DNA of 64,000 nucleotides, taken from the NCBI GenBank assembly GCA_003194525.1, contig NBIV01000199.1:102904-166903 (forward strand), written 5' to 3'. The notes beneath the pieces are model-generated. The model ran no database searches. It was not told the DNA's origin and worked only from the letters and a program-made list of their open reading frames with translations. Below are positions 7,215-53,545 of the stretch, piece after piece. The stretch's first letter is position 1; each line of letters begins with the position of its first letter. This DNA is from Gracilariopsis chorda. Taxonomy: Eukaryota; Rhodophyta; Florideophyceae; Gracilariales; Gracilariaceae. Both the position numbers and the translations under genes were made by a program.

Positions 7215-7226
7215 TGCCTTCTTGGT

Positions 7227-23837: not shown

Positions 23838-23872
23838 TAGTACTCTCGAGGAAGATTGATGCTTTGAATAGT

Positions 23873-25933: not shown

Positions 25934-25936
25934 TTC

Positions 25937-32998: not shown

Positions 32999-35720
32999 AT
33001 ATACCTCAAATCAGGTCCAATTATAATATTTGTGTGAACCTTTCCACCGTTTGGAACTCGATTGGGAACGATAGTTGTTGCAACCTTCAAGTCAAAAATC
33101 CTTCGTAGGAAATACTCTGCTGCGTTCCAGTCATGTTTCAATACTAATTGAAGTGTTGGGGCAACGATCAATCGGATGAGCTTGACATCTTCCTTCTTCT
33201 GTGTTGTAAACAATTGCAACAAAAAGTTTTATGCTTCATGTATATCTGCCGTGGACATGAGTGAAAGCCTTTCAGATGCACGAAACGTTCAACGAACAAG
33301 ACTGAGCAAACCTTTGTCAAGCATTAGATCATCTTCTTGAAGAACCTATTCTGTAGGGCAAAGACATTTAACTCTTCTGTCCCAAAGCTCGCAAGAGTAA
33401 GATAGAAGCTCCCGTAGGAGACTAACTGCAAGTACACGAATTGTTCCATCTCTTTCGGATATTCCTCTGGTTCTTGGACTCACTGGTAGCTGTTGCATAT
33501 AGTTTCCAGCCATGATTATCTCCAAGAGCTTTGCTAGAGTTTCTTAATCGGTCTTGAAAATCTCAAAGAACATTTGTGGGCACATTAAAGCTTCATCAAT
33601 GATCAGCAGAACAACCTTTTGGATTAGTTCTGCTCTCTTTAACCGTGGTTCATACTTGGAAAGTGTTCAACGCTCTCTACTTTGCGAATCTTCGTTTTCA
33701 TCAACTCCAAATCCAAGAAAATTATGCGAACTTATTCCGCCTTCGTATAGTGCAGCAGCAATACCTTTCGTGACTGTCGTCTGCACAAGTAGCCCTTCCT
33801 GCTCATCAATATCTCTTAGCTAAGATAGGAGATCGGTCATCCCTGTTGCCACCGGTACTTTAATAAGGAAACACCACCATCTGTGTTCAATCTTTCAGAA
33901 TCTCTCACCCTCTTTTGAATATTGTACTTCTCTCATTATTTTGTCAAAAACGTGCTTCTGACCCTCTTTTAGATCATCACGTCGCTCTTTCAACCTTCTC
34001 CTGGAGCTCGAAGAAGAGCTGCGACGTCTTTCAGGTCGTTGCTCTCCTAGGTAGCGTTTGCTCTTTGAGATGAAGTTATGATACAGAATGATGAAAGAAG
34101 GGATCATTTGTGATAAACTGAGCACCATTGCTGTCCGAAATCTCAAAGATTTTTCCATTCATTCTTCTCTTTCTTTTGCTCTGTTCTCTTCGGTTTTGTC
34201 TGCAGTTTGAGCTCTTTCTTGCTTTTCAATCGCAGTTTTAGGACTTACACCTTATTGAAAAGAAGTGCCCACCAAAGTAAAGCAGCTCAGCAAGAGTCAA
34301 ATAGTATCTTAATGCCTCATCAAAAGCCGTTTTGTACTCTCCACGATGGATATGCAGTCTACGGGCTACTGCCGCTTCTCGATAGGTTGAGTAAACTTGG
34401 CTCCCAACACGTTTCGTATAATCAAAAGAGTAAAGTGCTGAGTTCATGAGCAATATTAGAAGAGCTAAGAGTACGAGATTTTTGGTAGAAAAGAATCTAA
34501 TTCGAGTCACAGTTCGATCATTTTCGGATCACTGCATGACATAAATTCGTGGGCTTCCTCCATTACGAGTAGATTCAGACTCTGGTACAGAGCGCGGTAG
34601 CTTATCGTATAAACGTACTGTTTCTTATTATTTTATATCGTAGAAATCCATGTACCAGGAAGGCACCTGGAACTATCTTTCCAACAAGGAAGATTTCAGA
34701 CGTCTAGGCAGTCTTACGTTTCAGATCAGAACTTGTCGCTTTCCACGGAGATATGTGTGACGACGTGAATGTATAGTGGGAGTGATGCGAGCATGCCTGA
34801 ACTCAAAGAGGCCATGCAGCTTCAACCGCATCCACCGGTCTCGCTCTCATGTACGCCCTTATCCCATTTTGAGCCATGTCAATCTGTGCACCTGATTAGA
34901 TTTTCATTCGACTTGATACAATTAAGTCCTGTTCTATGGCACTCTTGAAAGCATATTTCATCAGGTATACTACAGTTCTGCGACCTTGGGGTCTTTCAAC
35001 ATTGATGTGAGCCTTGTACTTCATTGTGAGTTTCAAATTGTACGGAACCACTTTCAAATCTTCTGTACTTCTTCTTCCATAATTCACTCAGTTGGTGTCC
35101 TCATTTATCGTTGTTCCGGGAACAATTTCTTGTCGAGCAAACCCAAATTGGGAGCTCCCTTCAGATTTACGACCACGACCATGTGCAGTGTGTCTGTGCA
35201 TATTGAATTTCTTCACCACTTTTCGGAGTTCCTGGTCTTCCGTAGAGTGACCTTGAGCAAATCCGGCTTTGAAGAAAAAGTTTCAATGATCTCAGAATCT
35301 TCAATTACGCCCCCCTCCAACCAAAGAAGAATATGACGATGTGGAGTATTTCTCTCCTGGAACTCAGCTCTGGCGGCAATTCCAATGCTTTTAACGAAAA
35401 AGGGCTCATGTGAATTATCCTTTAGAACCTTCATAATTGAATTTGCCTAGTGGTTGTACACTCGTGCAGTAGGATCTGGCCTATTAAAAGCACTGCTTCT
35501 TTGTCCCTGTGGAGAAAATGCTCCTTTGTTTTCGTTGTCCATAATAAACCTTTTCATCTCTTTACACTACACGTTCATTGTGATTGTGACGAAAAGCGTC
35601 GGGGGCCCAGGGAAACAACCATTGATTGCACATCCAGTCTTTTTTTGTCACCAGTACGCCGGAGAGTTTTTGTAATCACGTGGAAGGAAGAATATACCGA
35701 GAGAGCCGAGTTAATCTGTT
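32999..35720 (-). pseudogene. Helitron Rep/helicase remnant
   Basis: Minus strand, from high to low coordinates. A GPPTLFVTITMN stretch near 35600 matches the Helitron GxPxLFxTxTxN block. Then FQERNTPHRHILLWLEG (about 35350) carries the HUH nickase signature HxH, and VVPYNLKLTMKYKAHINVE (about 35030) the next conserved block. Near 34400 a YSTYREAAVARRL helix resembles the FxEAAxxxGL block that precedes the helicase. PIF1-type helicase pieces follow at about 34000-33380: KGIAAALYEGG, LLIIDEALM (Walker B) and MQQLPVSPR (Helitron GDFxQxLPV). The Walker A loop is destroyed (PVATGMTD). Several stops and frame changes. A rolling-circle transposon copy, inactive; the ends were not found. Confidence 0.85.
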
Positions 35721-36053
35721 ATGATGTGGGTTCCAGCTCACAGCCCACGTTCTTTAACTATCCTCATCGTCGGTGTTCTCATTATACTAGTTTGGCATTC
35801 AAAAGGCAAAGAATTGAAATGAATGAATAACGACTCGTCAAACCCAATTTTGAATGAATCAAATTTCTCAAAATAATTCCATACATAGCACCGAGCTAGT
35901 TTGCTTGGGACAAAAGAATAGCAGTATACTAGACATTTCCCAGTTTCTTTGGAGGTAAAACTTGCGCCAGACTCCACTAATACCTACCCTCTCAGGTGCA
36001 CATGGAATCCAAATCTTACTGGTCCTGAGCGAGTGCCCCTTCAAATAGTAAAA

Positions 36054-36082
36054 TAGAATAGATAGAATAGATAGAATAGATA
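36054..36082 (+). repeat. Short tandem repeat, 9-bp unit
   Basis: About three copies of AGAATAGAT run directly into the TATA-like motif upstream of the transposase gene. Confidence 0.85.
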
Positions 36083-36094
36083 TATAGCGTTTAC
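36079..36094 (+). promoter_or_regulatory. TATA-like core motif before transposase gene
   Basis: GATATATAGCGTTTAC resembles GATATATAGTGCTTAC found in both spacer units before the oxygenase gene. It lies about 210 bp before the proposed ATG at 36307. Confidence 0.5.
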
Positions 36095-36306
36095 ATAACC
36101 AAATAGCACTGGCTTTTTATCACCCGTTGCCCGACCTGCCCCTTGCATCGCATGCTCTACCCCACGCCCTACGAAAAGATGCTCTGCATCACGTGCACCA
36201 CCTCACCTACGTGCGCCATAATATTACGCTCCCCGATATCCCACTCCGCCACCACACTCCCTTCTCTGTTTCCAAGTATCCCGTTCTCCGTTCTCCTTCC
36301 CCCGCC

Positions 36307-39300
36307 ATGATACCCTGTTGCCATCCCCGTTGCGCTTTCTATGGCCGCACTGCGTTCTCTCTCCAGAGTCACCAACGCAGGTGCACTCATCGACTCACCC
36401 CCGACAAACGCCCTTCCTCCTCCGCCAACGCTCCCGTCCAGTTCCCTCCAAGGACCAAGCAAGGAAAATCCGTTCCAAACCTCTCCACCATTCCTCCTCC
36501 CACTCCCTCACACTGCCCCTCCGACAACGTTCCCCTCACTGAAGATGAAACCTATCACATCCAACAGGCCTCCCTTTCCCTCCAAACACAAGACGCACAC
36601 CACATGGCAGGTCACGCCCTCTGTTCAGTCTGCTCCTCAAACCCACCTCCCCATACCTCGTCCCAATCCCCCTCCCCTCTCCTCAACAACCCCCATCCCG
36701 AGCAACTCGTCCTCTGCATCTCCTCCATCGCTTCCTCCTTCAGCACACGCAAAGCTGACGAACTCATCTCCCTTCTCAATCACCCAGACTTCTCCAAGTC
36801 ATCCTTCCAGAAATCCATCTCCTCCGCAAAGCAATGCCTCGCACTCCAAGAACACCTCCTCAATGAATGCATCAGCTCCACCGGCTTCCTCCCTCTCACA
36901 CTCACCGACGAACTTAACTCCTTCTCCGCAACCCTCTTCCAAAAAACGCGCCACAGACGTCCTGAAGCAACCCCTCGCTCTCGCACACTTCAACAACACC
37001 TTCTTCCAACCCGTCTCCCAATCTTCCCCTTCCTCCTCTTCCACCCCCGCCTTCGCCCATCCTATGGCCGCATCCTTTGGAAACAAAGTCGTTCCTGCCT
37101 TCAAACAAGCCATCATGCAGTGCCACATCAATGACATCGTCTGGCACACCCCCGAAACAACCGGTATGGAATCTTTCGTCGGTCTCGTCCAGTTATAGTC
37201 CGATAAGTCCACCACTTCACTCAAGAGCTCCTCCATCAACTCATATCCCCTTCAAATCACCCTTCTCATCTTCTCAGACGCATTCTGCTGAAAGTTTATC
37301 TCCGAAAACCTCACCCTCGTAGGATACCTCCCAACCTCCTTCTCCCCCTCTTCCTTCCCCGACCACGCAGACTTCATCCCACATTCGTCCTCCAACATCC
37401 CACGCGAAACAAGAATTGACCTCATTCAGCGCACCATCTCTGCAATTCTCAACCCACTCCTATCTTCCGCCCTCCTCGGTTTCTCATTCCGTGACGCCCA
37501 CGGTGTACTCCGCCACTGCCACCCCATTCTCTGCAGCTACTGCGCAGACATCCCAGAGGCAAATGACATCCTCCCCATCTCGCACGGAACACGACCACAT
37601 CACCCCTGCCCCAGATGTACCGTCCCCTGCGAACACCTCTCCCTCAACACAAACTCCATCCACTTCCGCACACAATCCCAGACTCGAAACAAACGCAGAG
37701 AATACGCCGCTCTCCTTCGCCAGTGCAACGAACCCCAGCTCGGCCGCAATCCAAAAGTCGCTCGCACCAAAAAGGTACAAGCAACCAGAGTCCTCCAGTC
37801 CCTCTCCCTCGCAAAGTATCCCTGTCTCTTCGAATCTTACGCCATTTTCAACATCACTCTCCTTCTCTCCTCTTACAACATTTTTGCCTTCGAACCCCTT
37901 CACAACTTCCACCTCGGCGTCTCAAAGCTCATCAAAGCCACTGCCATCGAACGACTCCGCTCCGAATCACTCTTCACCACAGTCGGCCCCAACAACACCA
38001 AACGTTCCTTCTATTCCATCCGCACCTCAATCCTCAAACACTCCAATTCCATCCTCGCCGCCATCGAAAAGAACTCCCCCGCACCCGGCCTCCACATCTA
38101 CTTCTCCACAACCGTCATATCCCAAGCCCTCAACGGCTTCTTCAACACAGAAGGCTTACGAGGAATGCTGGAAGCAAAGGATTACCGCACCATCGACATG
38201 GTCTTCCCATTCATCGGCGCCTTCTTCGACAGATGCTGCAAATAAACCGACTCCTCCCCCATCACTTCTGTCTTCACCAAGTACATAGACCTCCTTCTCT
38301 TCTCTATGCGATACAACTCCTCCCCCGAATTGACAGACACCTCCCTCCTCTCTCTCGAAAAACACATAAGATCCTTCAAAGTCATAGCCGCATCCATTCT
38401 CGGACCCTACCACTCCTCCCACCTCGGCACCCTCAAGTTACATCTCCTCGACCACATCGTCGAAGACATACGCCGATACGGGGGTCTCCAATTCAACGAA
38501 GCAGGCATCTTCGAGCACGCCCACGTCCTCTTCAAATCACATTACTCCAAAACTTCCAAACGAAGAGCCATCGCCCATACAGAAACCATCGGTGCTATAG
38601 ACCGCTTCAATCTTTTCAAACACTGGAATCTACTTTCCGCAGACCCTTCTCTATCCTCCCATGCTCGACCTCAAACTCAACCGCAACTACGCAAACCTTC
38701 CTTCGTACGTGACGGAAAACATCTTTCCTTCTACGACATCTTCACAGCCGCAAAGTACCTTGCATCCACCCCCAACGCAAGTCAAAAATTTCTTCAAGAA
38801 CTCTTCTCCTCAGACACGCTCTCCATTATCTCACAACTAGGTCCCACCACACTTCATTCCTTCGTCTCCCTTTCCATCGAATATCTCAAGATAATCCTTA
38901 ACCCAACAACCTCCTTCAAACTCGTCTCACCTTCGTCAACTCCGCATACGTCGTCGGCGGTTACATCCCAACACTACACAATTACAACCAAGAACGAAAC
39001 GAACTCATCCTCCAAAAACCCTCCGTCCCTCTCCTCCAGCGCATCTTCGCCGTTCCATCATTCGAACTTTCCAGATCACCAAAGTTCTCCCATATCCTTG
39101 TCGCTGGAACCAACTCCTCCTCTCCATCCACAACCACTGTATGGGTCTCCAAGCTCATTGCCCTAGTTCGCTTCAAACTACCTTCCCCCTCTTCAAGCTC
39201 TTCCACCCCCATGACAAAGGAATTTGCTTTCGTACAATTCCTTGAACTCGTACCACCCCGCGACAATGTCGATATCACCCTCAACTGCGTCTGCCTTCGG

Positions 39301-39504
39301 TGGTCAACCGATGACGAGCGGGACCACACCACCGATCCAGTTCCCATCTCCAAACCTTCCCCCGACGACAACGTATATCCTTGGTTCGGCCTCATTCCTT
39401 CCACCTCCATTCTAGGTGTAGTCCGCCTCATTCGAGAAAACTACCCCGCCCCGCCATTCACGCCTCTTCTTCACTGGCGCTTCCATGTTTTCTACATCAA
39501 CTGA
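36307..39504 (+). pseudogene. KDZ/Plavaka-type transposase, broken
   Basis: The proposed ATG opens a C2H2-like finger (CCHPRC, then HQRRCTH), typical of the N-terminus of Plavaka-like transposases. The frame runs Ser/Pro-rich to about 36960, moves to the second frame until about 38930, then returns to the first. Core landmarks: SDAF and LVGYLPTSF near 37285-37345; a zinc-like HxxC, CPRC pair after IPEANDILPISHGTR near 37560-37620; FEPLHNFHLGVSKLIK near 37895; KLHLLDHIVEDIRRYGG and NEAGIFEHAHVLFKSHY near 38440-38550; C-terminal HWRFHVFYIN. In-frame stops: TAG 37196, TGA 37289, TAA 38243. The family assignment rests on this motif order; catalytic acids were not assigned with certainty. Confidence 0.75.
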
Positions 39505-39583
39505 TTCTATCGTGACACCTCTTCAAAGTCTTACGCCCCACAATCTGCAACACATCAGTAAACCACCCGTTCCACCAGTAACA

Positions 39584-42013
39584 CTATTCTTCTTCAACTT
39601 GTTCTTCATAACCTCCCAGACCTTCCTCCCACTGCGCCTTGACATGATCCGTCGCCTCACCTCTCCCAAAATCTCGACTCTCTTTCACCAACCTCTTCAT
39701 CCACACATCTTCTGGCCGACATGCAGCAACATAACTGTCCAGCACCCCTCCCAGCCATTTCGTCATATGTTCCGAAAAGTATTCATCCTTCGCGGCCAAG
39801 TATATCTTCCGCTTCGAAAGTATCGACAGCGCTACCGTCGCTTCTCTATCCCATTCCCAGCTATACAACGCGGGTCACCCTCATCGCATTCTTCATTCTC
39901 AAATTCTTCATGATATAGCTCTCTCACCCTCTCCCACGCCACACCAAGTATATTCTCTACCTCGAGCGGAAGATACTCACATTACAACGTAGCAAATACC
40001 AACTGCCGTCTTCCTCCACGCCTCAAATCTGTGTCCATTGCCATCAAAACACATCCGATCCACGCATTTAAACGAGCCAAATGCACCACTGTCCCATCAA
40101 CGTACTCCATCTTTCCCTCCCTTTCCGTTCCCAACTCATATTCAATGAATTTTTCCAATACTTCCACCGCAGCCCCGTTCTTTAAGTACATGTCCCCTTT
40201 ACTAAACTCTTTCAGGCACCCAGCAACCTGAAATCCAGAATACGTAAGATTGTCGATTGTTTTCATCCTCCAAGAACATAAACTACCGCTTTTCGCCTCC
40301 CCATTCCTCTTGAACTTCGTCTTTGCTTCCTGTAACTGCTTTTTCAACTCAATGTCTAGCTCCGTCCCCTCTCGCGGTCTCACACGTCTGGTTATCAAGT
40401 CATATCCAAGCAACGAAAAAATTTTGTCCCGTTCCACACGCTTCCGAACCCCAATCACATCACTCAACTTCTGCTTCATACGTAGCCTCAAACACCTGTC
40501 CGCAACAACCTCCCGCACACATTGATCTTTCCTACCCGCTTAACGAATCGACTCCCATCTCTCCCCCTCAATCTCAACGCCAAACAAGTACTTCAATAGT
40601 TCATTACTTCCTCCTCGCGACGAAGGCGTGTACGACCTCATCTCAGACGCAATCTCAAACGGACATCGAGGTACAATCTTTTTTCCTCCCACAACAAACA
40701 CACTCCCTTCTTTTCCCTTCCCCAATACTTTGCATCGATTCGTCCAGTTCCTTTCCATACCCTCCGAATTAAAACAAAGCTCCGATACCTCCACCTTCGC
40801 ATAGTACAACAATCTATCATATACTACCCTGGCCAACCCATAAAAACCCTCTTGCACATCAACCACATACTCCCTACGCCCTCTCAATTCCTTTTCACCT
40901 TCAGATCCCTTTCTTTCCCCTTGTCTCACCTTCATCCCTTCCCGGAAGCTATCTATCAGCAAATTCTTCTCGCTCATCTCTTCTCTTATCCTCTTCAGTT
41001 CCTCTCGCGTCAACTTCAGCGACATCTTTAGACTGCAGTGGTCCCCTTTGATCTGCCCGAGTTCTGCGCTCAACATATTGACCCTCTCAACTAACGAAGA
41101 TCGAGACATCACAACGATGTCGTCATTCCCTGCATCTCCCAAAATATTGACAGGCAGCCGTCGCTCCTGAGCAGGCTCACTTGGCCACCGATGAACACTT
41201 CCTTTCCTCTCTCGCATTCCTTCCGGAGTCCGTGGCGTTATGCTTCCTTTATCGCTTTCCAAGTCTTGAGCCATTTGCACTTTTCGCGCCCTTACCAGGG
41301 TGCTCGTACGTTCTCCGCTTTTCGATGCTTCCTGTATTCCATCTGTCACTCTGACCGCTTCTTCCACTTCTTTCGTTTCCTTTAAATCAGAGCGGCGTCC
41401 CACTCCTTCCTTTATTCTCTCTCTCGTCCATCTCCCCTTCACAATGTGATCCTCTTCGTCCCCATCATTCTACCAAAGGGACATTTACCTCTCCTCCATA
41501 TTGATTTCCCCTTGGGGCTCCACCTCTCTTCAGCGCAACTGCTTCTTCTATTTGTTTCCTTTCCGGCATTTCTTCATCTTTATTTTGGTCTTCGACCCGC
41601 ACATTTGCTTTCAACCCTCCCTGATGTGGTACCTCTTTTCTTCTTTTAGCAACCGAACCTTTCTCACCCTCCACCCCACCACCAGACCCAGGCATAGATC
41701 GCTGTCCCCGAACCAAATCTATCCTGCGTGCTACATGAGCATGGGCATCAGCCTCCAAATTCTCACTCATCGTGCGCTCACTCGTCGTGCGCTCACTCGT
41801 CGTGCAATCGGATCCGACGTTCTTTGCCCCACCTCTTCTCCCTCTCTTCGAAGCACCTTCTCCTGACCTCCTCCCCGATGATCCGCTCCTGGGAACACAT
41901 GATTTCGATTTTGCTCCACTCGCGGTTCGCTCCTCAATAGCATTTCGCAGCGTCCTAGGCGCACTCGCCGCACCACCCCCTGCCAGGCCTCGCTTCTTTC
42001 CCTTCGGTGCCAT
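39584..42013 (-). pseudogene. Basic coiled-coil protein of the KDZ-like element, unknown function
   Basis: ATG at 42013 begins MAPKGKKRG and a very basic, disordered region with a 15-bp tandem repeat encoding SERTT (about 41767-41812). Near 41465 the frame shifts by one and continues. Residues coded around 41110-40900 form a long coiled coil (LVERVNMLSAELGQI, LKRIREEMSEKN). A folded-looking part follows (GFYGLARVVYDRLLYYAKVEV). An in-frame TAA stands at 40540-40542, after which the same frame goes on to 39982, and another frame to 39584. It is convergent with the transposase. No family was recognised; a DNA-binding partner of the transposase is one guess. Confidence 0.5.
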
Positions 42014-42181
42014 TCTTGGAATCCAAAATCTTGCGCAAGGGGCTAGTGACACTCTGGGATGGCGCACGCCGTGTGTTGTCCGGAAAAATCTCGCCACTCA
42101 AGGCGCGCATAAATCTTTGTTTTTTGCGAAATCTTGAGAGTACAATCCTCGGTGGTACCGAAAATGGACGTTTCTTTGTCA

Positions 42182-42192
42182 CATATATATCG
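42182..42192 (-). promoter_or_regulatory. TATA-like core motif before coiled-coil gene
   Basis: On the minus strand GCGATATATAT stands about 170 bp before the ATG at 42013 and is followed, as in the spacer motifs, by a short AC-rich tail and ACGTCCAT. Confidence 0.45.
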
Positions 42193-42310
42193 CTTTGTAT
42201 CTTTCATCCTTACTGAAAAGTGATTTTCTCTTAAGTTAGGACTACACATCCGTTTAAATAATAAACGTCGCCCTTTAGCCAAGCTGTGGACAAAGGTTTA
42301 TAACAACAAA

Positions 42311-45300
42311 CTAATCAATGACTATCGTTCCATCCTTCACATTCAAATGGGTTTGCCAGTCATAAAAATCACCGTATCTGGCGAAGAGTTACTCTCTTTG
42401 CTCTATGTTGGCTGTCGCCTCCATCTTAATAAGTTTGTAGTCCGTTAATCTCCCTGGTGTTCGTCGCACTCCCGGTGTCCGTTTGATTCGCACATTAGCC
42501 TCCCTTTTTTTCACGAGGCCATCCACCATGGCATCTTAATGTTTATTGCCTTCCACATACTATGGATCGTTGATATACCCCGCAATAAGAAAAGGGGCAT
42601 GAACCACCCATAAAACGGAGTTTGCTTGTTTTTCATGCCATTTCGTCAGCTGTTTTCGATGCAGAAGTGATTAGAACTGTTGACCGTACACTTCTATCTC
42701 CACCGAATACTTCCAGAAGCGATCCTTCGTCACACCCATGACTTCCTCCCCGTAGGTCTTGTGCACTTCTTTCCAATTCGAAAGGTCATTATAAACCGTC
42801 CAGTAGAAATAGCACAATACCTTGCCTGCAGCAATTCGACGAGTTGCAAACACTCCAACACCAGCCTTTTCGTGACGAAAGTAGACTTGCCCACTCGCAA
42901 CCCATATTGCACAGCCTCCATTGCCAATAGAGACTTCATGTTCTCCAGATTCATTCTTCCCTGCAGCTCCCTCGGCCATCCATCCATAGCTTTCTTCCTT
43001 CCCAACTTCCCTAGAATTTCACTTTGCCACAAAGTGGAGAGAAAGTCGACAAGGTATGGGGGAAGAATTTGGTACGGTGGAAATCCGTCGACAGCCCTCC
43101 ATAACACGGTGTGCCTGCTTCTTCCAATTGGGAATGCAGAGGAAACACAATGGGCCATCTTTCGAAGCTCCTGGCTCTTCTCAATATCCGTGTGTCTTTC
43201 CCGTATTATGGAAGCGAAGCGAACAATAGCGGCATGCTTGGCGTGTTCAAAGCAAGCTTTGTCCGGTTCAAACCCCGCAAACTTCCGATGCTTGGGCAGT
43301 TACATCCACGCCATTGGTGTCGAGAACGTTCCGGCAAACATGCCAACCACGAGGTCTCCTGGCTGACTGAACCAGCAAATCAGCTCATTCAACAGTGCCC
43401 TACACTTCTGTTCCGGTCGCACCCTCTTCCTCGTATACTTCCCATCCAGGTTTTTCACAGACCACATGAGCATCTCACTATTTGAAATCGGCGGCACCTG
43501 ATCCATGATTGCATGATACGCTGGGTATCGTGAAGCAACATAATGGAAGTTCTCACAGTTGACCATCCAGTGCTGTTGTGCATAAGGTACTCCAGCACAA
43601 ACAGCATGTACAGCGTATTCTGTTGTCTGGTGCAACCGGCAACTTCTTCTACCAACGTTACCCGTCGAATTACCTAAAGACCGTACAAAATGGAGGGGCT
43701 GTTCGTCGATGACAAGGGAGTAACGCATCGTATCAGAGTCATCCATGTAGGTAACTTTCCGTAGCACATCCCGCCACAACGGTACCTGATCCCATGAGCA
43801 GAACGGTATAATATGTCCACCAGGACGTAGAAGCGTTGACGAACTCCTCGCTGACCTGCTCATGCCCTTCTCTGTCAGAATATCGTGTTCGCTGTTCTCC
43901 AAACGACGCTCAGAACGAGTCCCATACGGCGGATCGGAAAGCAGGAACTGTACCCTTCCTTCAATAGATACCTCGCTTTCGCCAGACTTGTTGTGGTCAA
44001 CTTCGATGAGATGTTCGAACTTGCAGTTGTGGAGACGGAAGTTGCGGGACATCTCCTTCTCACAATACTTGTAACCTATCACATCATCCAAATTCGTAGG
44101 GTACGGTGGTGCACGAATCCCCGTGCCTTCGACATCATACCATACGTTCTGCGACAAAGCTGTTGTCTGCAGTCCTTGAGTGGCCTTTGGTGCAGTACCA
44201 CGTTCTGCAGTACCACGTTCCGCATCCTCTACCATCTCTATCTCTTTCATTTCTTCCAACTCACACTGATCACCACCTTCCACACGCTCAGCACGTTCGT
44301 TCCCATTACCAGCCGTACCAGTTTCTACCGGCTCCACGATGATGTCAACGTCTTCTGCGGGCTCTTTTTACACAGCTTGATGTACTTTGACATTGCATTC
44401 ATGCAACGCAATCAGCTTCAGAGGCTTTATGGCCTCTTGAACCGTGGTGACAAGAGATTCACTAAAGTTCTCAAACTGCAGAGGGAAAAGTCTCGTTCTC
44501 GTGATGATGAACCTTTTGAGGGCATCCAATTTGCTGGGAGCAGAGATGTCGAACAGTTTCTGTTTTACCACCACAATAGAAAGGTCACCAAGGTATTCTT
44601 TGGCAAAAAGGCGAAGCGCTGTATCCACTGGGTCCGGCAGATTCCATGCCCATTTGGTAACGTTTTCTTCTACGGTGGTGACGTTCTTCTCCTCCAGACA
44701 CTGTTTGGAACAATCTTTGTGTTGGAAGCCCATGGAGCGTTGTGCGATATCGGTGAAGACTACACTGATATAGTAGAGTCGAATGTAAGGCAAGATCATA
44801 AACTCAATGTTGAGAAACCCGAGGAATTGGGCGAAACCATCCCAAGCCCTGGTCACCAGCTGCACACCATACCCGAATTTCTGACTCTGGGTCATGTCCG
44901 ACAAACTCACTTTCGAGAACTTCCTAGCTGCCATGCCCCTTTTCCTTTTCCTACCATTTCCTTCCTTATCCACGGCAATCTGTTGCACCATAGACAAGCT
45001 AATGACCATTTCAAAGTCGGTTCAAGGATCCGTGTGGAAAGCGGAAGATTTCTTGGTTGCTCCCAGAACATGGGACTTGCAAAAGACAGATAGCAACACT
45101 TTACGTGGAATTCCTTTAAGCCCTTCCCTTTTACAATAAACCTTCCAAAATTCCTTTACACGCCTGTCGTCTTCACGGTCCTTTACGTCCACCACTCTTG
45201 ACATAAGAAAGAGTTGACGTGGAGAGCCTCTGAGAGACATTTTACGGAGCTTGAAGTCCGAATACGAGATGTAATCTGGTCTGATGAGAGTGAGAAACAT

Positions 45301-45459
45301 TTTCTTGGCAGAGTCATGAACGTTGCGACTTTGTACCGCGAACTCCACAAAGTCGGTGTGCTTCAAACTTCTTGGCTCATCGACATTTTGCCTCATCGCT
45401 GCATAGTCATCACGAACTGCAAGATAAGCATCAATAAGCTCTTCTCCGGTTCTGTGCAT
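42311..45459 (-). pseudogene. DNA amino-methyltransferase fused to SET domain, broken
   Basis: ATG at 45459. One frame runs from there to about 42980, crossing stops at 45022 (TGA), 44368 and 43300 (both TAA); one frameshift then leads to 42311. The first 360 residues have no recognised domain. A 15-bp repeat encodes RGTAE. The methyltransferase follows: catalytic LLSDPPYGT at 43941-43918, a RPGGHIIPFCSWDQ block, and after about 170 residues GDLVVGMFAGTFSTPMAW with KHRKFAGFEPDKACFEHA, the AdoMet-binding motif. This order (DPPY first) is that of beta-class N6-adenine or N4-cytosine enzymes. The C-terminal SET domain spans about 42862-42365: GVGVFATRRIAAGKVL, NDP, KREANVRI, and EATANIEQRE-LFARYGDFY, with three further stops. 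DNA and histone modification in one chain is unusual. Confidence 0.8.
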
Positions 45460-45504
45460 CTTGAAGGAACCCGTTTCCTTCGGATTATGTTTCTCTCCGT
45501 TTTG

Positions 45505-45652
45505 GGTCGAGGATCGTGGTACGAGGTGTCATAATGCTCCATTGCGAACAAGATGGAGCGCCAGGACGCGAAATTTTAATTAAAATTCATGCCTGTCGCT
45601 CCATCGTGTTCGCGATGGAGCATCACGACAACTCGGACCATGGTCTTCGACC
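45505..45652. repeat. 148-bp imperfect palindrome 1
   Basis: Arms of about 60 bp run from GGTCGAGGATC to GGTCTTCGACC around an AT-rich centre (AAATTTTAATTAAAATT). Each arm contains a smaller hairpin built from CTCCAT and ATGGAG. The second spacer repeat has an equally long palindrome. Confidence 0.9.
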
Positions 45653-45752
45653 AAAAGATTATCAAATTGTTTTTGAAATGCAATTAATTGGGAGGGGAGT
45701 TGCAGGGATGCTACGATGACGACGGATGGATGTCATGAAACGCCTTGAAAAC

Positions 45753-45770
45753 GATATATAGTGCTTACGT
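45753..45770 (+). promoter_or_regulatory. TATA-like core motif in spacer repeat 1
   Basis: GATATATAGTGCTTACGT, identical to the motif in repeat 2. The inner ATATAT is palindromic, so it could also serve the minus-strand gene starting at 45459. Confidence 0.5.
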
Positions 45771-45993
45771 CCATCTCTTTGGAACCAAGCAGGTGTGATC
45801 ACGGGAGCTTCAAAAGAAAGGGGTAACACTGTTGGAGACGACCACTCTGGTACTTTTTTTTAACAAGGAAAAGTTGTTCTTCGGGTCCAATAGAAGTTTT
45901 CAATCGTCCAAACCGACGCAACGAATGCGGTTGCGAAGAATGCGCAAGTCGCTTTTGACTTGGTTGCCACGGATTATGTTTCTCTTCGTTTTG

Positions 45994-46141
45994 GGTCGAG
46001 GACCGTAGTACGAGGTGTCATGGTGCTCCATTGCGAACACGATGGAGCGCCAGGCATGAACTTTAAATAAAGTTTCGCCTCCTGGCGCTCCATCATGTTG
46101 GCGATGGAGGACCACGACAACTCGGACCATGGTCCTCGACC
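45994..46141. repeat. 148-bp imperfect palindrome 2
   Basis: Arms of about 60 bp, outer ends GGTCGAGGACC and GGTCCTCGACC, inner ends GGAGCGCCAGG and CCTGGCGCTCC, around a centre with TTTAAATAAAG. Better matched at its ends than palindrome 1. Confidence 0.92.
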
Positions 46142-46240
46142 AAAAAGTTATCAAATTCTTTTTGCAATGCAATTAATTTGGAGGGGAATTGCAGGGATGC
46201 TATGTTTACGACAATGGATGTCATGAAACGTCTTGAAAAC

Positions 46241-46258
46241 GATATATAGTGCTTACGT
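46241..46258 (+). promoter_or_regulatory. TATA-like core motif before oxygenase gene
   Basis: GATATATAGTGCTTACGT, about 100 bp before the ATG at 46353; the downstream CCATCTCTTTGG could hold the transcript start. Confidence 0.55.
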
Positions 46259-46352
46259 CCATCTCTTTGGTACCAAGCATACGTGATCGCGGGAGCATTC
46301 GACGTCAGCGGGTGCCAAGAAAACGCAAGCGCGACCTTTGAAGTACTCAGCC

Positions 46353-49300
46353 ATGGATTCCACTGGGAATAAGATAAACGCACCATCACGGAAACGGACT
46401 CCGAGGAAGCCTGTTTCGCCGAAGAGACGTGTTATAGATATGCCGACCACGCGAGGCAAAGCGAAGAGCCGGGGCGCCACCCGAACTGCCAGCCACCCTG
46501 AGACATCAATTGGGGGCAATACGGGTCAGGTGCTCAAGGTCGATGCGGAGGTCAATCTGTTGGTACGATTTGGGAGTAGTGATGCGAAGGTGAAGTTAGG
46601 AGAGGCGAATTTGCGCGGTGTGGGGGTTGCTGGGGGGCCCGGGACGAGACTCTGTCGTTCATTACACAACCATCCCCTGTCTTCTACGCAGAGACCTGGA
46701 GACGACTTGGTGGTTATCTTTAAGACAAATATTCGTCACACGAAAATGAGAAGTACCTTTATGTTTTTGGGGGTCCCGAGGAACCGCCCGCAACTTTGAA
46801 GGAGATGGTTTCAGCGGGATTATATGCAGGGGACACTGCAATGATGAGTGTCAAAAATGAAGGCCGAGAGGTGAATGAGTCGGTTCCACCGCAGTCAGGA
46901 GCAAATGTGAAGACTGTCCACAAAAGTACAGCTTTCAGGACCACTGCAAGACAATTCAAGCGCCTTTCCGCTGTTGCTGGTACACCATCAAGCTTTTTGG
47001 TGGCCAAAACGCCGGTGAAAAGCCTTGAGAGCGGTGGAGAGGCTCCAGTGAAAACCCGTCAGAGCGGTGGAGGAACATCAGGTGCTCTGGCGGGCGGCTC
47101 TGGAACCCGAGGAGTCCCTGATGTCGGAGCAAGCTTCGACGATGACGTCATAGAGGTGCCTGTACTCTCCAAGAACGATGTTGATCCGGATGAGAGGGTT
47201 TTATATGATGACGGTGATGCTGTTCCTTCGGAAGAGGTGGGTAACAGTTTGGGGGTTTTAGACATCAATCGAGATTATTATGACTAGCACAATTGCGTAA
47301 TCGATATCCACAACATTCGATTTCCGAAGAACATGGCCCGTTCAAAGAATGACAAACATCTTCGAGATACTTCGAACAAACTGAGAAAATTCGGATATCT
47401 CCCTTCTCTTGGGTCGATTGCGGTGGCCCTGTTGGAGGATGTGCCGGTTCGTGACGCCATTGGTGCGAGTGGGCGTTTGATTGTTCCTGTGGTTTTGGTG
47501 GACGGCTTCCATCGAGTGATTGTTCGACTGGACCTCGAGCAGGATGGTGCGAGATGGGCACGGACTACTGCTAGTTTGAACGTCACGCTTTGGGAACGCA
47601 ACGACGGCCGGAGAATGACATTGAATGAGGTGTTGTGGCTGGGGAAGACGTTGAATGATTCGAGCTCTAATGTTCTGTTGATATCCTTCGCAGATAAGAT
47701 TCACACTGCTGTTTCGTTTATTCGTAATGGCGTAGAGCAGGATGGGTATGATTTTTCAAAGCTTAAACCAAGCCAAATCACGGGGGTGTTGTGTAGCAGT
47801 GAGACCAAAGGGGAGAGAAGGGAAGATACGTCATTTCAATCGCCATTCTGCTCTTGCTCTGAAGTTTGTGCGTAATCCCGGTCTGTTAGAGTTCTTCGAT
47901 GTGGTGTGTCAGGAGACGCCTCAAATTGGAATCACTCATGTGTCTAGTGATATTCTGCTTGGAATGTCAGGGGATAAGTTTCGTTTTACTATTTAATGTC
48001 TACAGGCACATGTTCGAGTGAGGTCGGCGGCCACTGTTAAGATGGGACCGTTTGAGGATTTCCGAAAGTACTTTTTCGACTGCGCTTCTAGAACGTATGA
48101 CATTTGCAGTGAGCTGGGGAGTTCCATGAAGGAGAAAAAGAATGTACAGGAAGTGGTGAATACCACTGTTACCATTGGCGATTCTGACCGGACTATGTCA
48201 AAGTATATCATATCTCGTCTGGGGAAGTGGTATACGAAAGAGAAATGAAGTTCACTCGAGTCCAGAGTGAGTAGTAAGGTGAAAGAGCTTCGTAGGACGT
48301 TGTCCAGCGCTTTGTCGGGCATACAGGGACAGGATGCTACTGCTGCTGCTCCCTTTGTGGCCGATGTGGACGTGATCAAGTTGCTTGGTCTGAATGAGGA
48401 AGCTGCTCAGGAGGCTCCAAACGCTGACCAGGAGGCTCGAAGAAGTAAGCGAATATCAGAGAAGCGTAAAATGGTGGTCCTGGACGAGGATGAAGATGAA
48501 GGGTCAGTTGATTTTGAGCCACCAGTGAAGAGGCAGAGACGATCGAGTCGTAAGCCGAATGCACCTGGTGTGAAGCGACCTGGCTTCGGTATCTTGCAGG
48601 AGGTGGTGGAGGCGCTGCGTAGTATGGAAAGGAGAGATTTGAAGAGGTCGTTGACAGCACAGGAGATCATTGTGCTCGAGTCAAGCGAGGATGAAGCTCA
48701 GGAGAACTTAGTGGATGATGAGGAAGACGAGGCAGAGGAGCAGCAAACCGCAGGCAGCTTTGACGATAAGAATCTCGACAAGCTTCCAGCTGGCTTAAGT
48801 ACGCCAGGAGAGCTGGCTATGGGAGCGGAAATGTCTTGGGTGGACGAGGTATACTCGTTGCCGAGTGAGTGGCCTGCAAGCGGAAATGCAGTGAAGCATT
48901 CCCATCCATGGGTGCAGAGGAAAAATCTGAGGAAGCACCATCGGGCGGAGTGCCTATCACCTGATGACTTCCGAATGGGTCATCATGCTATGTACTGGCG
49001 TGCGTTGCGCAACATGCAAAAAGAGATGGGTACTACGACACGTGCAGTGCTGGGCCTGAAGATGCCGTCATCAGGAACGGCATCGAATGAAGAGGAAGCG
49101 TTATGGATGGCTGCTTTTGAGAGAGAGGACTTGGCTCGTGTTTACTTTGCGAAGAAGAGAGTGGAGCTGTCGAAGAGAGGGTTTTGTGTGCTGGAGAATT
49201 TCAGGACAGATGAAGGCATTGCGAGTGAGGCTTCGAAAAGGGGACTGCAAATGGACGAAGATGTGATAGGAGAACTGATGAAATTCTTCGAACGCGACTT

Positions 49301-50230
49301 TGTTTCGCAACCGGATCTCACGAACGAAGCGAATCGTGTTTTCTGGAATATGATCATCAATTAAGGAGGGGTAAAGGATGTTAAGAATGGTATCAAGGCG
49401 GTGGAGGGTTTCATCACAACCAAACGAGGGATTGCGGACAGAATTGAGGAGCGTGAAAATGGTGCGGTTCTTGATCAAAAGAGAGCCGTCTTGGGTGCAA
49501 GGCTTGGTCAGATTGCAGCGGCTTTCGGGTTGTCAGAAGGTGGAACGATGTATGCCCCTCCCACGGGTGGCTGTATCCTTTGTACTGGAGAGGACTGTCC
49601 GAGGCAGGTGCTACACACGGATTTCAGGGGTTTGACGGAGAATGACAGGATGAGAAATGTGAACCCGGGGTATTTTGAAATGGAATCGGGACCGGATGCG
49701 TTCATGATTTGGGTTTGTGTACGGTCACATACTCTAACAATGACACGGGGTAACTAGAAAGAGCTTTTGGCTTCTATGATGGTTCGTAAGTTCAGAGTTC
49801 CACCGTTTTCTGTGTTCATTGGAAGAGGGGATGTATTTCATGCTGGGGTTGGGTACAATGATGCAATAGCGAAAGGCTATTGCATGTAATACCATATGTA
49901 CTTTGTACCTGAGGGATACAATCTCCCGGATGCGGTGCATAGGCAAAGCGGTTTTTGCCCTCCCTTTTTTAATGATGAAGAGGACCGTGGCGATTTATGT
50001 GAGGTGGGAGGAGGGGAAGAGGAGCGGTGAGATGAAGCTGACGATAGAGATGTAGTTATGCAAGAAGCCCAAGGTGAGAATCCGTCGGATGAGGAGGATG
50101 ATGAGAATATACTGAAACCAGCGGAAATGAACACTGATGGAGATTATGAACAGGAGGATGACGATGAGGGTGAAATGGTTCCTAAAGGAGCAGAGGGACT
50201 GATAGGTGAGGATAATGAAAGCGATTGATA
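46353..50230 (+). pseudogene. 2-oxoglutarate/Fe(II) oxygenase-like protein, broken
   Basis: ATG at 46353 opens a basic N-terminus (SRKRTPRKPVSPKRR). The frame shifts near 46640 and 47800, then stays the same to 50230. In-frame stops: TAA 46721, TAG 47285, TAA 47994, TGA 48246, TAA 49362, TAG 49755, TAA 49887, TGA 50028. The C-terminal third looks like a double-stranded beta-helix oxygenase: RGFCVLENF near 49180; CPRQVLHTDF with the iron-binding HxD at 49614-49622; PGYFEMESG and FMIWVCVRSH; then FIGRGDVFHAG with the second iron His at 49839, and YHMYFVPEG. A TAA sits near where the 2-oxoglutarate Arg might be. An acidic tail ends it. In fungi KDZ elements carry TET/JBP oxygenases acting on 5-methylcytosine; the substrate here is unknown. 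Confidence 0.75.
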
Positions 50231-50901
50231 ATGATAAGTAAACTAGTGATATACGTTTGTTAAATCTGATGATTGCTTTTTGATCTTTATAGTGAGTGTT
50301 TATAGTGAATGTTTATAGTGAATGGGAGAGGTTTACTACGATGGGGATTACTTTTTGTGCGGCTTCATTCGAATGATGCGTAATAATGAAGGGATGATGT
50401 CTACACAGATTTCGCTTTGTTATTTTCCATAAAGAAAGGTCTACAAGTATGAGAAAAAACATGGGATGGGTGTATTGGAGGGGAGAATGAAGGGGCAGCT
50501 CATATGAAACACGAATGGATGTAAAGTTGAGTATTGGATTATGTATGAGAATTGAAGGTGATTGCACTTGTGTGAAGGATCCCGTTGTTATAGCCAAATA
50601 CCGCGATTTTCCATTCTGTTGATATAGAAAGTACTGGCTCTTCTCATACATGAATGCATTGTGGCGTGTTTTATGTATGAAGAAGAGTGAAGAGGGTGAA
50701 GGCATTATCGTGCAGAGGTTCAAAATATTGTTTTGTGTGTTGGGAAGGACAAGGGGTGAGCAAATGAGAAGATAATAAGCTGTGCATTTAAGCAGTGAAA
50801 AAGTTGGTTCAAGTGAAGAGGGGTGACATTAATTATCGACTTTTGAAAATTCATTCACGACTCTTGAAGATTCATTTCATTTGAGAACATCCACACGCAC
50901 C
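50231..50901. other. Intergenic spacer
   Basis: AT-rich. It holds a short tandem repeat with unit GTGAATGTTTATA near 50290-50325 and otherwise no supported gene. A 136-codon minus-strand frame here has no recognisable character. Confidence 0.5.
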
Positions 50902-50952
50902 ATGACTACTATTTGCAATTTTCGGTCAGTGAGCTTGGGGTTAGGACGATGA
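50902..50952 (+). promoter_or_regulatory. Short upstream ORF overlapping the next start
   Basis: A 16-codon frame begins with ATG in context ACCATGA and its TGA stop overlaps the ATG at 50949 (ATGA). Such an arrangement can allow termination-reinitiation of translation. Whether it is translated is unknown. Confidence 0.4.
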
Positions 50953-51560
50953 TGGGAGGGGATGGTGGGGAAGGAGGTGCAGGCGAGGATGGTCGAGGAG
51001 GAGGGGTAGGGGGAGGTGGAGAGAGACGAATGGATGGGTTCTACCGCAATGTGAAGGAACTATTGAGGAGCGCTGGGGAAGGGCTTAAGGAGCGTTTGGA
51101 TGAGTTCATTGAGGAGGTTGCAGTGGAGTTGGGAGGGATGGTTCTGAGTGCATCGGAGGAAGGAGTGCCGATAGGTGCTGTGGCTGAGTTGCGCTGGAGG
51201 GTGAGGGAGGCTGGGGTGTGGGCAGAGCAGCAAGTCGATGGGGTTGTGGCGTGTGTGGGAGAGGAGCTGGAGAGGCTGTGGAAGGAGAATGAGGAGTTGC
51301 GAGGACGGATTTTGGAGTTGGAGAAGCGGTTTTTACTGCTGGACAGGGCTGTGCATCTAGTCGAGGATATGTGGAACAAGATGTGTGGAGGTGGAGGGGA
51401 AGGTGGGGTGGGAGGTCCTGTCGGGAGTGGGTCTCCAGTTACTCCTGGAGGCAGAGGAGGCGCGAAAAGGAGGTTGGAGGAGAAGGACGAAGAAGGATTG
51501 GAGGTTAAGAGTCGGTTGAAGAGGAGGCATGGAAAAAGGGAAGAGGGAGAAGAAGGCTAG
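50949..51560 (+). CDS. Glycine-rich coiled-coil protein of the KDZ-like element
   Basis: An uninterrupted frame of 203 codons, the only intact gene in the cluster. The N-terminus is almost all Gly/Glu/Asp; residues about 30-150 are heptad-like helices with a strong coiled coil (EELERLWKENEELRGRILELEKRF); then a Gly-rich stretch and a very basic C-terminus (KSRLKRRHGKREEGE) that could be a nuclear localisation signal. Base composition is GC-rich and G-heavy on the coding strand, unlike its neighbours. No family recognised; plausible roles are a structural or DNA-bridging partner of the transposase. Confidence 0.6.
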   Translation: MMGGDGGEGGAGEDGRGGGVGGGGERRMDGFYRNVKELLRSAGEGLKERLDEFIEEVAVELGGMVLSASEEGVPIGAVAELRWRVREAGVWAEQQVDGVVACVGEELERLWKENEELRGRILELEKRFLLLDRAVHLVEDMWNKMCGGGGEGGVGGPVGSGSPVTPGGRGGAKRRLEEKDEEGLEVKSRLKRRHGKREEGEEG

Positions 51561-51758
51561 TGATGTTTAGGAGTGTCATTGAGGCTGTTAGGACGGTGAA
51601 ATGGGTGGTATTGGAATCTGATGCGCGGTGCGTCGGGTGTGTGAGAACGGAGAGAGCTACCAAGATGAGTTCCTGAGGATGAGTTCGAAATCAAACTAGG
51701 GCAGCATGAAGTTTGAAATTCAAAAGATGGAAATAAAAATGTTAGTTTTGGTTTGGTG

Positions 51759-51801
51759 CTCGAAATGGCGCTGGCCGCACAGCGGCCAGCGCCATTTCGA
51801 G
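51759..51801. repeat. Perfect hairpin, 20-bp stem, 3-base loop
   Basis: Left arm 51759-51778 and right arm 51782-51801 are exact reverse complements (starting CTCGAAATGGCGCTGG) around the loop ACA. It lies about 200 bp after the last gene of the cluster. It could be a terminator-like RNA hairpin, an end structure of the element, or the footprint of a small inverted-repeat transposon. Confidence 0.92.
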
Positions 51802-52249
51802 ATCTGTATCTAGCTTTTAATGGAGAATGAACTTGCTCCAAACTTGAAATTAGCGATGCGCGGTACAGGTGAGGCAAGGCTCTGTAAGATATGGAAGTTT
51901 GAATTCCAAAATATTTCTTTTTCACTTGGCATGGGCCAGAAACTAGCAGAATCTATCAAGTTCGTAGTATTTTTGAGCTTTTGCCTAAGAAACTTGAGAT
52001 CTAGAACCTCTATTTAGCATTCCGAAAACACCGACGATATGCTGCTCCTGCATGACCCGCAGCTTACACCCACGAATGTGCACATAACTCATCCCATGCC
52101 TGTTCCCATTGCCAACCAAGTGCTGCCTGAAGCCATTCAGTTCGGCATCCCTCCACAACAAATCATATTTTTTGCGTTCTTCTTTCATTGAGTTAAAGTA
52201 CTTGCTTTTCTGCTTTTGCTTTCTTCACCAATTTTGTCTTCCCACCGCT
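51802..52249. other. No supported gene
   Basis: A 67-codon minus-strand frame (52188-51985) is the longest. No domain was recognised. The right end of the KDZ-like element may lie here. Confidence 0.35.
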
Positions 52250-53545
52250 GTTTATGAGTCCTACACCGCGGCGCGCAGCGCCGCTCGTGGCCGACGGCCG
52301 CTTCCTCTTTCTCTCCACTATAATGATTTACACTTTTCTTTTGAGCCTTTTTTTGTTTGATGGGAGGCCTTTCCAAAAACAATCCCCTTGCAATCGCCCT
52401 TCAGTGCAGCAAGAAAAGGCGTTTTGCGCAACGCTTCCTTTCCAATCAAATAATTCAGCAGCAGCAGCAGCAGCAGCAAACCTCAAAGCTTATTGGCTGC
52501 AGCTCTATGTTGACTGCCACTGCTCCTCAGAGGCTGGCACTACATTATTGCTACCCATCCCACTGCACAGTGGTTGCCACTGCAGTCATTTTGGCAGTGC
52601 CGGCCAATTACAAACCACTGTACTGTCCATCCACAACTGCAGTGCCCGCCAATCACAATACCACGGGCGCTCAATTGCTACTGTATTCTATATTCACTCT
52701 CGTCGCCGCGGCCCTCATTGGTCTGCAGGTCGTGTGCGAGCGATAGCCATCATACGAGGCCTGCAGATTCCCCAAAGTCACCCCTACTCAGCGGCGCGCA
52801 GCGCCGCCCACGGCCGAAGGCCGTTTCTAATTGTCTCAACAGCACCCCGTACTATAACTATATACACATGTATGAGGGGGGTGTTGTTGATTGACGGAAG
52901 GCGTTGCGCCAAAAAAATACCCTTGCATGCCCTCTTCAGTGCATGCAATTTTCACGCCCCCCCGCCAATCAAAAAAGTCAGCAGCAGCAGCAGCAGCAAA
53001 GCTCAGAGCTCATTGGCTGCTGCTGCATGTTGACTGCCGCAGCTGCTAAGTGGCTGGCACTGCAGCAGTGCCACCCACACTGCTGCACAGTGGCTGGAAC
53101 TGCAGTTATTTTGGCATTGCCAGCCAATTACAATCTACTGTACTCGACCTACACTGTGCAGTGCCAGCCAACCACCAACGCACGGGCTCTCCACTGCAAC
53201 TCTATTCCATACTCACTCTCAGCACCGCAGCCCTCATTGGTTTGCAGGCTGTTTGTAAGTGATAGCGAGCAGAAACGGCCTGCATATTCCCCAAAGTCAC
53301 CCGTATTCAGCGGCGCGAAGCGCCACCCGCGGCCGAAGGCTGCTTCTACTTGTCTCTCCATTATAATAATTTGTTCATGTATGAGGGGGGTGTTCTTGAT
53401 TGAATGGAGTCGTTGCGCCACAGAACCGTCTTGCACGCCCTCGTTTGCGCATGCAATACGCCCATTTGGAGCAACGCCTCCCTAACATTTAAAAAACTCC
53501 TGCAGCAGCAGCAGCAGCAAGGCTTGCTGCTTACTGGCTGGCACT
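52250..53545 (+). repeat. Tandem repeat, ~520-bp unit, with CAG tracts
   Basis: Two full units and a partial third. The GCGGCGCGnAGCGCC box starts each at 52268, 52791 and 53310 (spacings 523 and 519). Each is followed by TTTCT(C/A)..ACTATAATnATTT-like sequence and, about 190 bp on, a run of five or six CAG triplets (near 52458, 52980, 53502), then a region of short inverted repeats made of CTGGCACTGCAG-like words. Overlapping open frames in several registers (poly-Ala or poly-Gln from the CAG runs) look like by-products of the repeat. Confidence 0.88.

Follow-up and report, generated by a model that had tools for sequence, protein, structure and literature searches.

Transposons are known that carry an oxygenase of the TET/JBP kind, a SET enzyme or a DNA methyltransferase. 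In the sections cited here, TET+ transposons of the PlavakaA and PlavakaB subgroups are reported from fungi (Agaricales) (Kojima 2025, PMC12730594), and giant repeats flanked by Plavaka, some of whose genes match red algae, are reported from Amoebidium (PMC11244446). Here we describe a Plavaka-type DNA transposon in a 64,000-nucleotide stretch of the red alga Gracilariopsis chorda (contig NBIV01000199.1, positions 102,904 to 166,903; hereafter the window). This one multi-copy element carries, under selection, a predicted DNA methyltransferase fused to a SET domain as well as a ParB-like fold joined to a putative oxygenase. We found no description in the open-access literature of a transposon that combines a DNA methyltransferase with an oxygenase, nor of Plavaka in red algae.

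A sequence-only reading of the window had placed a transposase, a methyltransferase-SET protein and an oxygenase in one mobile unit at 36054-51801. Common ends, target duplications, purifying selection and a gene order and orientation that recur in 31 clusters support the unit; its extent is corrected to 35768-52036 (16,269 bp), bounded by imperfect 22-bp inverted ends, CGTCGGTGTT...AACACCGACG (Table 1). Homology of 39 other copies to the window stops between 52035 and 52041. We found the terminal inverted repeat at 9 of 10 left sites and 10 of 10 right sites fetched from other copies, the left site of copy C4 being the one with no match. A genome-wide search for the end pattern, allowing up to two mismatches, returned 277 matches versus 1 for the reversed control. 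Among the matches listed, exact-match end pairs bound C46 (17.6 kb), C63 (17.6 kb) and C114 (15.8 kb), and all three genes lie in each.

We searched for empty sites using seven joined flank pairs. Five gave matches across the junction: C46 (72% identity), C10, C263, C7 and C150; C114 gave no empty-site match and C135 matched by one flank only. The alignments of four copies define the element as CGTCGG...CCGACG, with duplications of TG (C46 and C150) or TA (C263 and C7), and the left CG itself is altered in C263 and C7. The alignment of C10, unlike the other four, has one extra base. Most copies have CG on both sides, and we considered CG as the target duplication, which would mean targeting of CpG. 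The empty sites place this CG inside the element and make the next 2 bp the duplication. By inspection, C114 is flanked by AA on both sides and C135 by AT plus one extra base; C144 is flanked by CG and the window copy by AT. The AT of the window copy is read by this rule and is not proven, because the repeat in its left flank continues differently elsewhere and mismatches the right flank. The search for other copies that the sequence-only reading had called for thus returned both inverted ends and 2-bp duplications.

Table 1. Features of the element and its borders, in window coordinates
Feature	Position	Strand	Remarks
Whole element	35768..52036	.	Plavaka-type family A copy; placed by the homology limit of other copies, their ends and empty sites
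Left target site duplication AT	35766..35767	.	Assigned by the 2-bp rule that other copies' empty sites give
Left terminal inverted repeat CGTCGGTGTTCTCATTATACTA	35768..35789	+	17/22 bases match the right end
Plavaka-type transposase gene, broken	36091..39552	+	Plavaka domain ~37310-37735; finger 36316-36390
Accessory gene, broken	39662..42079	-	821-aa frame in family B; relatives adjoin the transposase in all three families
Predicted DPPY DNA amino-methyltransferase fused to SET, broken	42314..45474	-	Methyltransferase domain ~43312-43953; SET within 42314-42880
Central block: direct repeat present twice at a 489-bp spacing, with inverted repeats nested in it (arms 65-157 nt)	45481..46296	.	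Repeat analysis
ParB-like and putative 2OG-Fe(II) oxygenase gene, broken	46368..50225	+	Likely start near 46440
Oxygenase motif sites	HxD 49614-49622; distal H 49839-49841; R position = stop 49887-49889	+	Window copy
230-aa open reading frame, G-rich	50868..51560	+	DivIVA match weak and below the cut-off (E 0.0089)
Perfect subterminal hairpin, 20-bp arms	51759..51801	.	Matched by many other copies in both directions
Right terminal inverted repeat	52015..52036	-	Sequence and ends of other copies
Right target site duplication AT	52037..52038	.	Assigned by the 2-bp rule, as on the left

Protein searches of the 91.3-Mb assembly (1081 contigs) gave at least 118 matches to the methyltransferase piece, at least 126 to the transposase piece and at least 115 to the oxygenase piece. 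These counts are lower bounds, since 114 of 268, 125 of 205 and 110 of 183 first-look candidates, respectively, were scored. We clustered 109 methyltransferase, 111 transposase and 88 oxygenase rows at gaps below 12 kb into 182 clusters; the 51 unclustered rows are secondary fragments of listed loci, except C184:23515, about 12 kb from its neighbor. Copies with the same gene order, which the sequence-only reading had proposed to seek, are common: 31 of the 182 clusters have the transposase (T), methyltransferase (M) and oxygenase (O) as T+ M- O+. Another 32 are T+ M-, 20 are M- O+ and 6 are T+ O+; the rest comprise 38 with T alone, 24 with M alone, 28 with O alone and 3 odd joins (C23, C37 and C192). 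One relative orientation is common to 89 of the 92 multi-gene clusters, which fits a single moving unit. Clusters with a single gene may represent fragments, contig ends or other lineages.

The copies fall into lineages. Family A, which includes the window copy, is old and decayed, and its other copies are mostly 91-95% identical in DNA to the window. Family B is young: C144 and C31 are about 99.5% identical. In family C (C28, locus L095), the transposase, accessory and ParB-oxygenase genes are adjacent. The window copy is dead, because its transposase, accessory, methyltransferase and oxygenase genes each lie in at least two frames with stops. An altered genetic code does not explain this; TAA, TAG and TGA all occur inside the matches, and other copies have open frames in the standard code. 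These open frames, given as stop-to-stop lengths, are spread over several copies: transposase of 1160 aa and accessory protein of 821 aa (C31, L091), methyltransferase-SET of 1065 aa (C745, L093) and ParB-oxygenase of 1417 aa (C550, L094). C31 also has an extra stretch with open reading frames between the oxygenase and the right-end gene (L092 ~6583-8137), which has no match in the window element.

C144, read directly, spans 7,986 bp between the same ends as full elements. It retains residues 1-834 of the 1160-aa transposase, 182 accessory-protein residues and methyltransferase-SET residues 425-1013, a part that takes in the methyltransferase domain and the larger share of SET. Its oxygenase frame, 1417 aa elsewhere, is cut down to the first 96 residues. 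Its spacing between T and M (2649-2652 bp) is shared by nine clusters, with 2079-2466 bp in six more, C144 alone having been read. C144-type copies are internal-deletion derivatives, not separate elements.

The transposase is, by its domain match, Plavaka-type. Plavaka (PF18759) was found in Pfam with E values of 5.7e-12 for the window piece (37292-38242), 2.7e-21 for the family B open frame and 1.7e-19 for family C. The sequence-only reading was correct about the parts of the unit; its KDZ label was not borne out, as the transposases match only Plavaka in Pfam and not KDZ (PF18758), and the duplication is 2 bp, versus 8 bp for Zisupton. Likewise, the N-terminal finger that it described as C2H2-like is C-x4-C-x12-H-x3-C in the window and family B. 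Duplications of 2 or 3 bp are expected of Plavaka (PMC12730594), and four of the five copies with empty sites have 2 bp. The Plavaka/CMCT pattern is C(2)C and H(3-4)H between the second D and the last E. We found CPRC after ADIPEA in families A and B (the first C is Y in C) and HNFH with a spacing of 2. The termini CGTCGGTGTT..AACACCGACG fit neither PlavakaA nor PlavakaB (TGT..ACA or CATCA..TGATG).

The two further genes that the sequence-only reading had taken for coiled-coil genes are present, on the minus strand at 39.7-42.1 kb and as a 230-aa frame at 50.9-51.6 kb. Relatives of the former, the accessory gene, lie on the opposite strand to the adjoining transposase in families A, B and C, and its protein has no match in Pfam.

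The reading of a DPPY methyltransferase fused to SET stood up well. PF01555 (N6_N4_Mtase) matches with E 3.9e-6 in the window and 1.2e-18 in another copy, and the 1065-aa frame lies in another copy. SET (PF00856) matches another copy with E 1.8e-4, at 22.3 bits against a cut-off of 22.4, and the window piece with E 0.063. PF01555 was found in all 39 methyltransferase homologs, one of them from Chondrus crispus (36% identity), and precomputed PF00856 in 20 of the 39. We aligned nine proteins at the methyltransferase and SET motifs, the eight homologs (one from Chondrus crispus) being chosen from those 20; DPP[YF] and FxGTFSTA occur in 9/9. Relatives by sequence in the PDB include bacterial DpnA and CcrM. 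According to the sections cited, DPPY is the motif of bacterial N6-adenine enzymes and SPPY that of most N4-cytosine enzymes, with the warning that the N6_N4 domain has changed specificity repeatedly (PMC8885841). The product is therefore likelier to be N6-methyladenine (6mA) than N4-methylcytosine. A predicted role as a writer is well supported. A scan by two short peptide patterns found no methyltransferase relative in IMG/VR viral contigs.

The third gene encodes a protein with two recognizable parts. MPTTRGKAKS is shared, which suggests that the protein starts about 80 residues into its frame. We found five homologs, including P0001. The structure model of P0001 is confident only at about residues 190-540, mostly with a predicted local distance difference test (pLDDT) score of 70-85. 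In Foldseek this part gave ParB, Noc, KorB or Srx (sulfiredoxin) at ranks 1-25, with probabilities of 0.90-1.00, so that the N-terminal region is predicted to belong to the ParB/Srx superfamily, with a ParB N-terminal fold. Pfam gave no ParB match for six sequences, and there was one weak PHROG match (E 0.036). The C-terminal part has HxD, a distal H and an R sixteen residues on, invariant in all five sequences spanning the domain, a spacing that we take to resemble JBP and AlkB. From this motif, present in the 1417-aa frame, the domain is a putative 2-oxoglutarate (2OG)-Fe(II) oxygenase, as the sequence-only reading had it, although Pfam gave no oxygenase match. Profile matches in the PDB were glycosylases (E 0.68 and 0.77) and look like chance. 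A scan with two short peptide patterns found no relative of the oxygenase domain in viral (IMG/VR) or prokaryotic contigs, and an alignment-based search for further oxygenase relatives brought up nothing beyond its own first row. P0001 and the methyltransferase-SET protein P0007 each come with 4 contigs, the longest of 20528 bp; these identical figures indicate that one contig of another source probably carries both.

We asked whether the carried genes are constrained. Nei-Gojobori ratios of nonsynonymous to synonymous substitution (dN/dS) between the window pieces and family B are 0.17 for the transposase (317 codons), 0.24 for the methyltransferase (342 codons) and 0.18 for the oxygenase (360 codons); for the methyltransferase of five other family A copies they are 0.19-0.22. 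These figures understate constraint, because the A copies decayed after insertion. Judged by such ratios of about 0.2, the methyltransferase-SET and ParB-oxygenase genes are under purifying selection.

Just upstream of the ParB-oxygenase gene lie the strongest inverted repeats of the element in families A, B and C. At a minimum arm length of 20 nt and within 700 bp, three are seen in family A at 45500-46146, besides the 20-bp hairpin at 51759-51801. A minimum of 24 nt leaves family B (C31, read short of the last right-end part) with just two, at L092 1199-1429: a 94% palindrome whose arms are 47 nt long, and a pair of 36 nt. At this same minimum, three pairs occur in family C (C28) at L095 4532-4761, and its one pair outside that stretch is weak (71%). 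Strand composition switches nearby. In 400-bp steps, mean GC skew is -0.37 from 36167 to ~45 kb (23 windows) and +0.33 from 46300 to 51.7 kb (14 windows), versus -0.01 elsewhere in the window, where the 118 steps reach at most 0.31 in absolute value. The cumulative minimum falls at window 45197, L092 869 and L095 5163, in each case 0.3-0.4 kb from the palindrome block, away from the ParB-oxygenase gene. At third codon positions of family B, the transposase has 54% C and 9% G, the accessory gene (minus strand) 40% G and 13% C, and the oxygenase 37% G and 16% C. Thus, in family B, the asymmetry tracks position in the element, not the coding strand. A mirror-like skew, C-rich on the left and G-rich on the right, is seen across window 35768-52036, L091-L092, L095 and L106. 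It could mark a replication origin.

Around the element, a repeat at window 34700-35768 has at least 39 other copies (80-83% identical) and stops at the left edge. Its continuation, read in ten copies, is absent from the right edge, perhaps through a deletion or rearrangement beside the insertion. Direct repeats of ~520 bp with GCA runs occupy 52250-53540, immediately right of the element. Retroelement-like genes were noted by eye at 5424-8265 and 23669-28540, where an 868-aa open frame (25934-28540) has the look of a reverse transcriptase plus integrase.

What might these genes do for the element? We regard it as an evenly balanced proposition that the window holds a dead copy of a multi-copy Plavaka-type transposon whose methyltransferase-SET and ParB-oxygenase manage its own marks. 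The transposase, probably with the accessory protein, would move the element and leave 2-bp target duplications. The methyltransferase-SET protein would most likely mark the element's own DNA (6mA, from DPPY) and nucleosomes, keeping it transcribable. The ParB-oxygenase would most likely load at the central palindromes beside its own gene and travel outward, and the dioxygenase might then remove or alter a mark or a protein along the element. We infer here the base methylated, the activity and substrate of the oxygenase, the loading of ParB at the palindromes and the anti-silencing purpose. Self-marking for accessibility is favored because a DNA methyltransferase fused to SET could write both marks at once. 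In eukaryotes that encode AMT1, 6mA lies between H3K4me3 nucleosomes and goes with transcription, according to the sections cited (PMC12695648), although AMT1 belongs to another methyltransferase family than the enzyme of the element. The element's own 6mA is a candidate substrate, if the oxygenase acts on DNA.

Several observations weigh against this proposal. Family C argues against a fixed writer-eraser pair: C28 has no match to the family B methyltransferase in the 9.7 kb read, including between transposase and oxygenase, the stretch right of the oxygenase lying outside that 9.7 kb. In addition, none of 18 transposase matches (52-56% identity, with 280 or more of the 317 residues covered; C117:510 is left out as the second frame of a different locus) has a methyltransferase match in the orientation of the unit within 12 kb, although unscored or strongly diverged ones would escape. 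In the young C144 the oxygenase is gone, and with it much of the methyltransferase-SET protein, yet similar copies spread, which indicates that neither is needed in cis. No Foldseek E value gets down to 0.001, the best being 1.1e-3. For the oxygenase domain there is no match in Pfam, Tet_JBP (PF12851) included, no meaningful PDB-sequence match and no confident model; a second model, of this domain, has a mean pLDDT of 34.5 and did not confirm a double-stranded beta-helix fold. Finally, palindrome sequences differ between lineages, so that position alone points to a cognate site.

A bolder version, which we think unlikely, adds that a ParB-type clamp would load at the central palindromes and carry the dioxygenase outward, that the methyltransferase-SET protein would write paired DNA and histone marks, and that the same center may be the replication origin of an extrachromosomal form. 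The mirror-like strand asymmetry would follow from such an origin. By analogy, the palindromes and the ParB-like protein parallel ParB/parS, a lead only.

The strongest alternative, to which we give somewhat less than an even chance, is that the oxygenase erases no DNA mark and instead acts as a hydroxylase on a protein, whether a histone, the transposase or another, or is a catalytically inactive ParB partner. The missing Pfam match agrees with this, as does C28, with a ParB-oxygenase and no methyltransferase in the usual place. Furthermore, and counting against an eraser, no host C5-methylase match was found in the genome; of 14 controls, the 10 recovered were all prokaryotic, and a gene with introns or a diverged sequence may have escaped. 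On the other hand, H, D, H and R are invariant in five sequences, the fused ParB-like fold points to DNA, and CpG transitions are somewhat enriched in family A: transition/transversion ratios are 1.7-2.0 at CpG versus 0.8-1.0 elsewhere. Weak CpG methylation is possible, to judge from this mild excess. CpG is not depleted (observed/expected 0.84), and neither this value nor the overall transition/transversion ratios of 1.15 and 1.05 support decay resembling repeat-induced point mutation. Because there is no host C5-methylase match, no CpG depletion and only a mild CpG transition excess, a role as an eraser of 5-methylcytosine is less likely. With no Pfam match, a poor fold model and C28 added to these, the sequence-only idea of a writer plus an eraser keeps its writer, and erasure of a base mark is not supported.

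It is also unlikely, in our view, that the methyltransferase-SET protein writes repressive marks by which the element silences itself and limits harm, like N4CMT and SETDB1 in rotifers. A captured amino-methyltransferase does serve transposon silencing in bdelloid rotifers, in the sections cited (PMC8885841). N4CMT, however, has SPPY and is a host gene, whereas here DPPY is carried and selected within the element.

A methyltransferase borne by a transposon and under selection might also time transposition, hemimethylated ends after replication being the substrate of the transposase. Dam methylation times IS10 transposition. Family C appears to manage without a methyltransferase, however, and we rate this analogy as rather improbable. 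Slightly more doubtful still is an integrated virus- or plasmid-like replicon with a central origin that acquired a Plavaka transposase. Strand composition that tracks position and switches near the palindromes would suit it, as would the ParB-like protein; against it, no polymerase or capsid match was found among the Pfam-scanned pieces, and no relative of the oxygenase domain or the methyltransferase was found in IMG/VR with two short peptide patterns each. A chance neighborhood of separate elements, which retroelement-rich surroundings might suggest, is ruled out for practical purposes by 31 clusters in one order, by shared ends and duplications outside all genes and by the empty sites; transposase copies lacking the other genes, with ends between genes, had been named as the sign of it, and such copies proved to be internal deletions with the same outer ends (C144) or another lineage (C28).

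The element makes it testable whether a transposon sets its own DNA and histone marks, and which base changes. Its nearest relatives in the literature, within the sections cited, are the TET+ Plavaka elements of fungi, which share the Plavaka transposase, an oxygenase gene aboard and 2-bp duplications among those reported (PMC12730594). They end in TGT..ACA or CATCA..TGATG instead of CGTCGGTGTT..AACACCGACG; here, in a red alga and not a fungus, the oxygenase has no Tet_JBP match and a ParB-like fusion, and a methyltransferase-SET gene is aboard. The Amoebidium giant repeats are likewise large, gene-carrying and equipped with a Plavaka transposase, but they form tandem clusters with tyrosine recombinases, up to 50 kb, and the cited passages do not mention a methyltransferase-SET protein or oxygenase (PMC11244446). 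Retrotransposons of Symbiodinium and charophytes carry a DNA methyltransferase too (PMC5890265, sections cited); theirs are C5-cytosine enzymes, whereas here a DPPY amino-methyltransferase is predicted in a DNA transposon. SET methyltransferases occur in the DNA transposons HarbingerS and MuDR of Phytophthora, as mentioned in PMC12730594; these belong to other transposase superfamilies, and a fused DNA methyltransferase is not mentioned there. Bdelloid N4CMT resembles the enzyme of the element as a eukaryotic PF01555 amino-methyltransferase joined to a chromatin domain, but it is a host gene with SPPY and a chromodomain, not carried by a transposon (PMC8885841, sections cited). Bacterial ParB, Noc and KorB share the predicted fold and palindromes nearby, and the element's protein differs from them by its oxygenase-like fusion. 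This arrangement is unusual, and with it eukaryotes may have a ParB-like protein linked to a chemical modifier.

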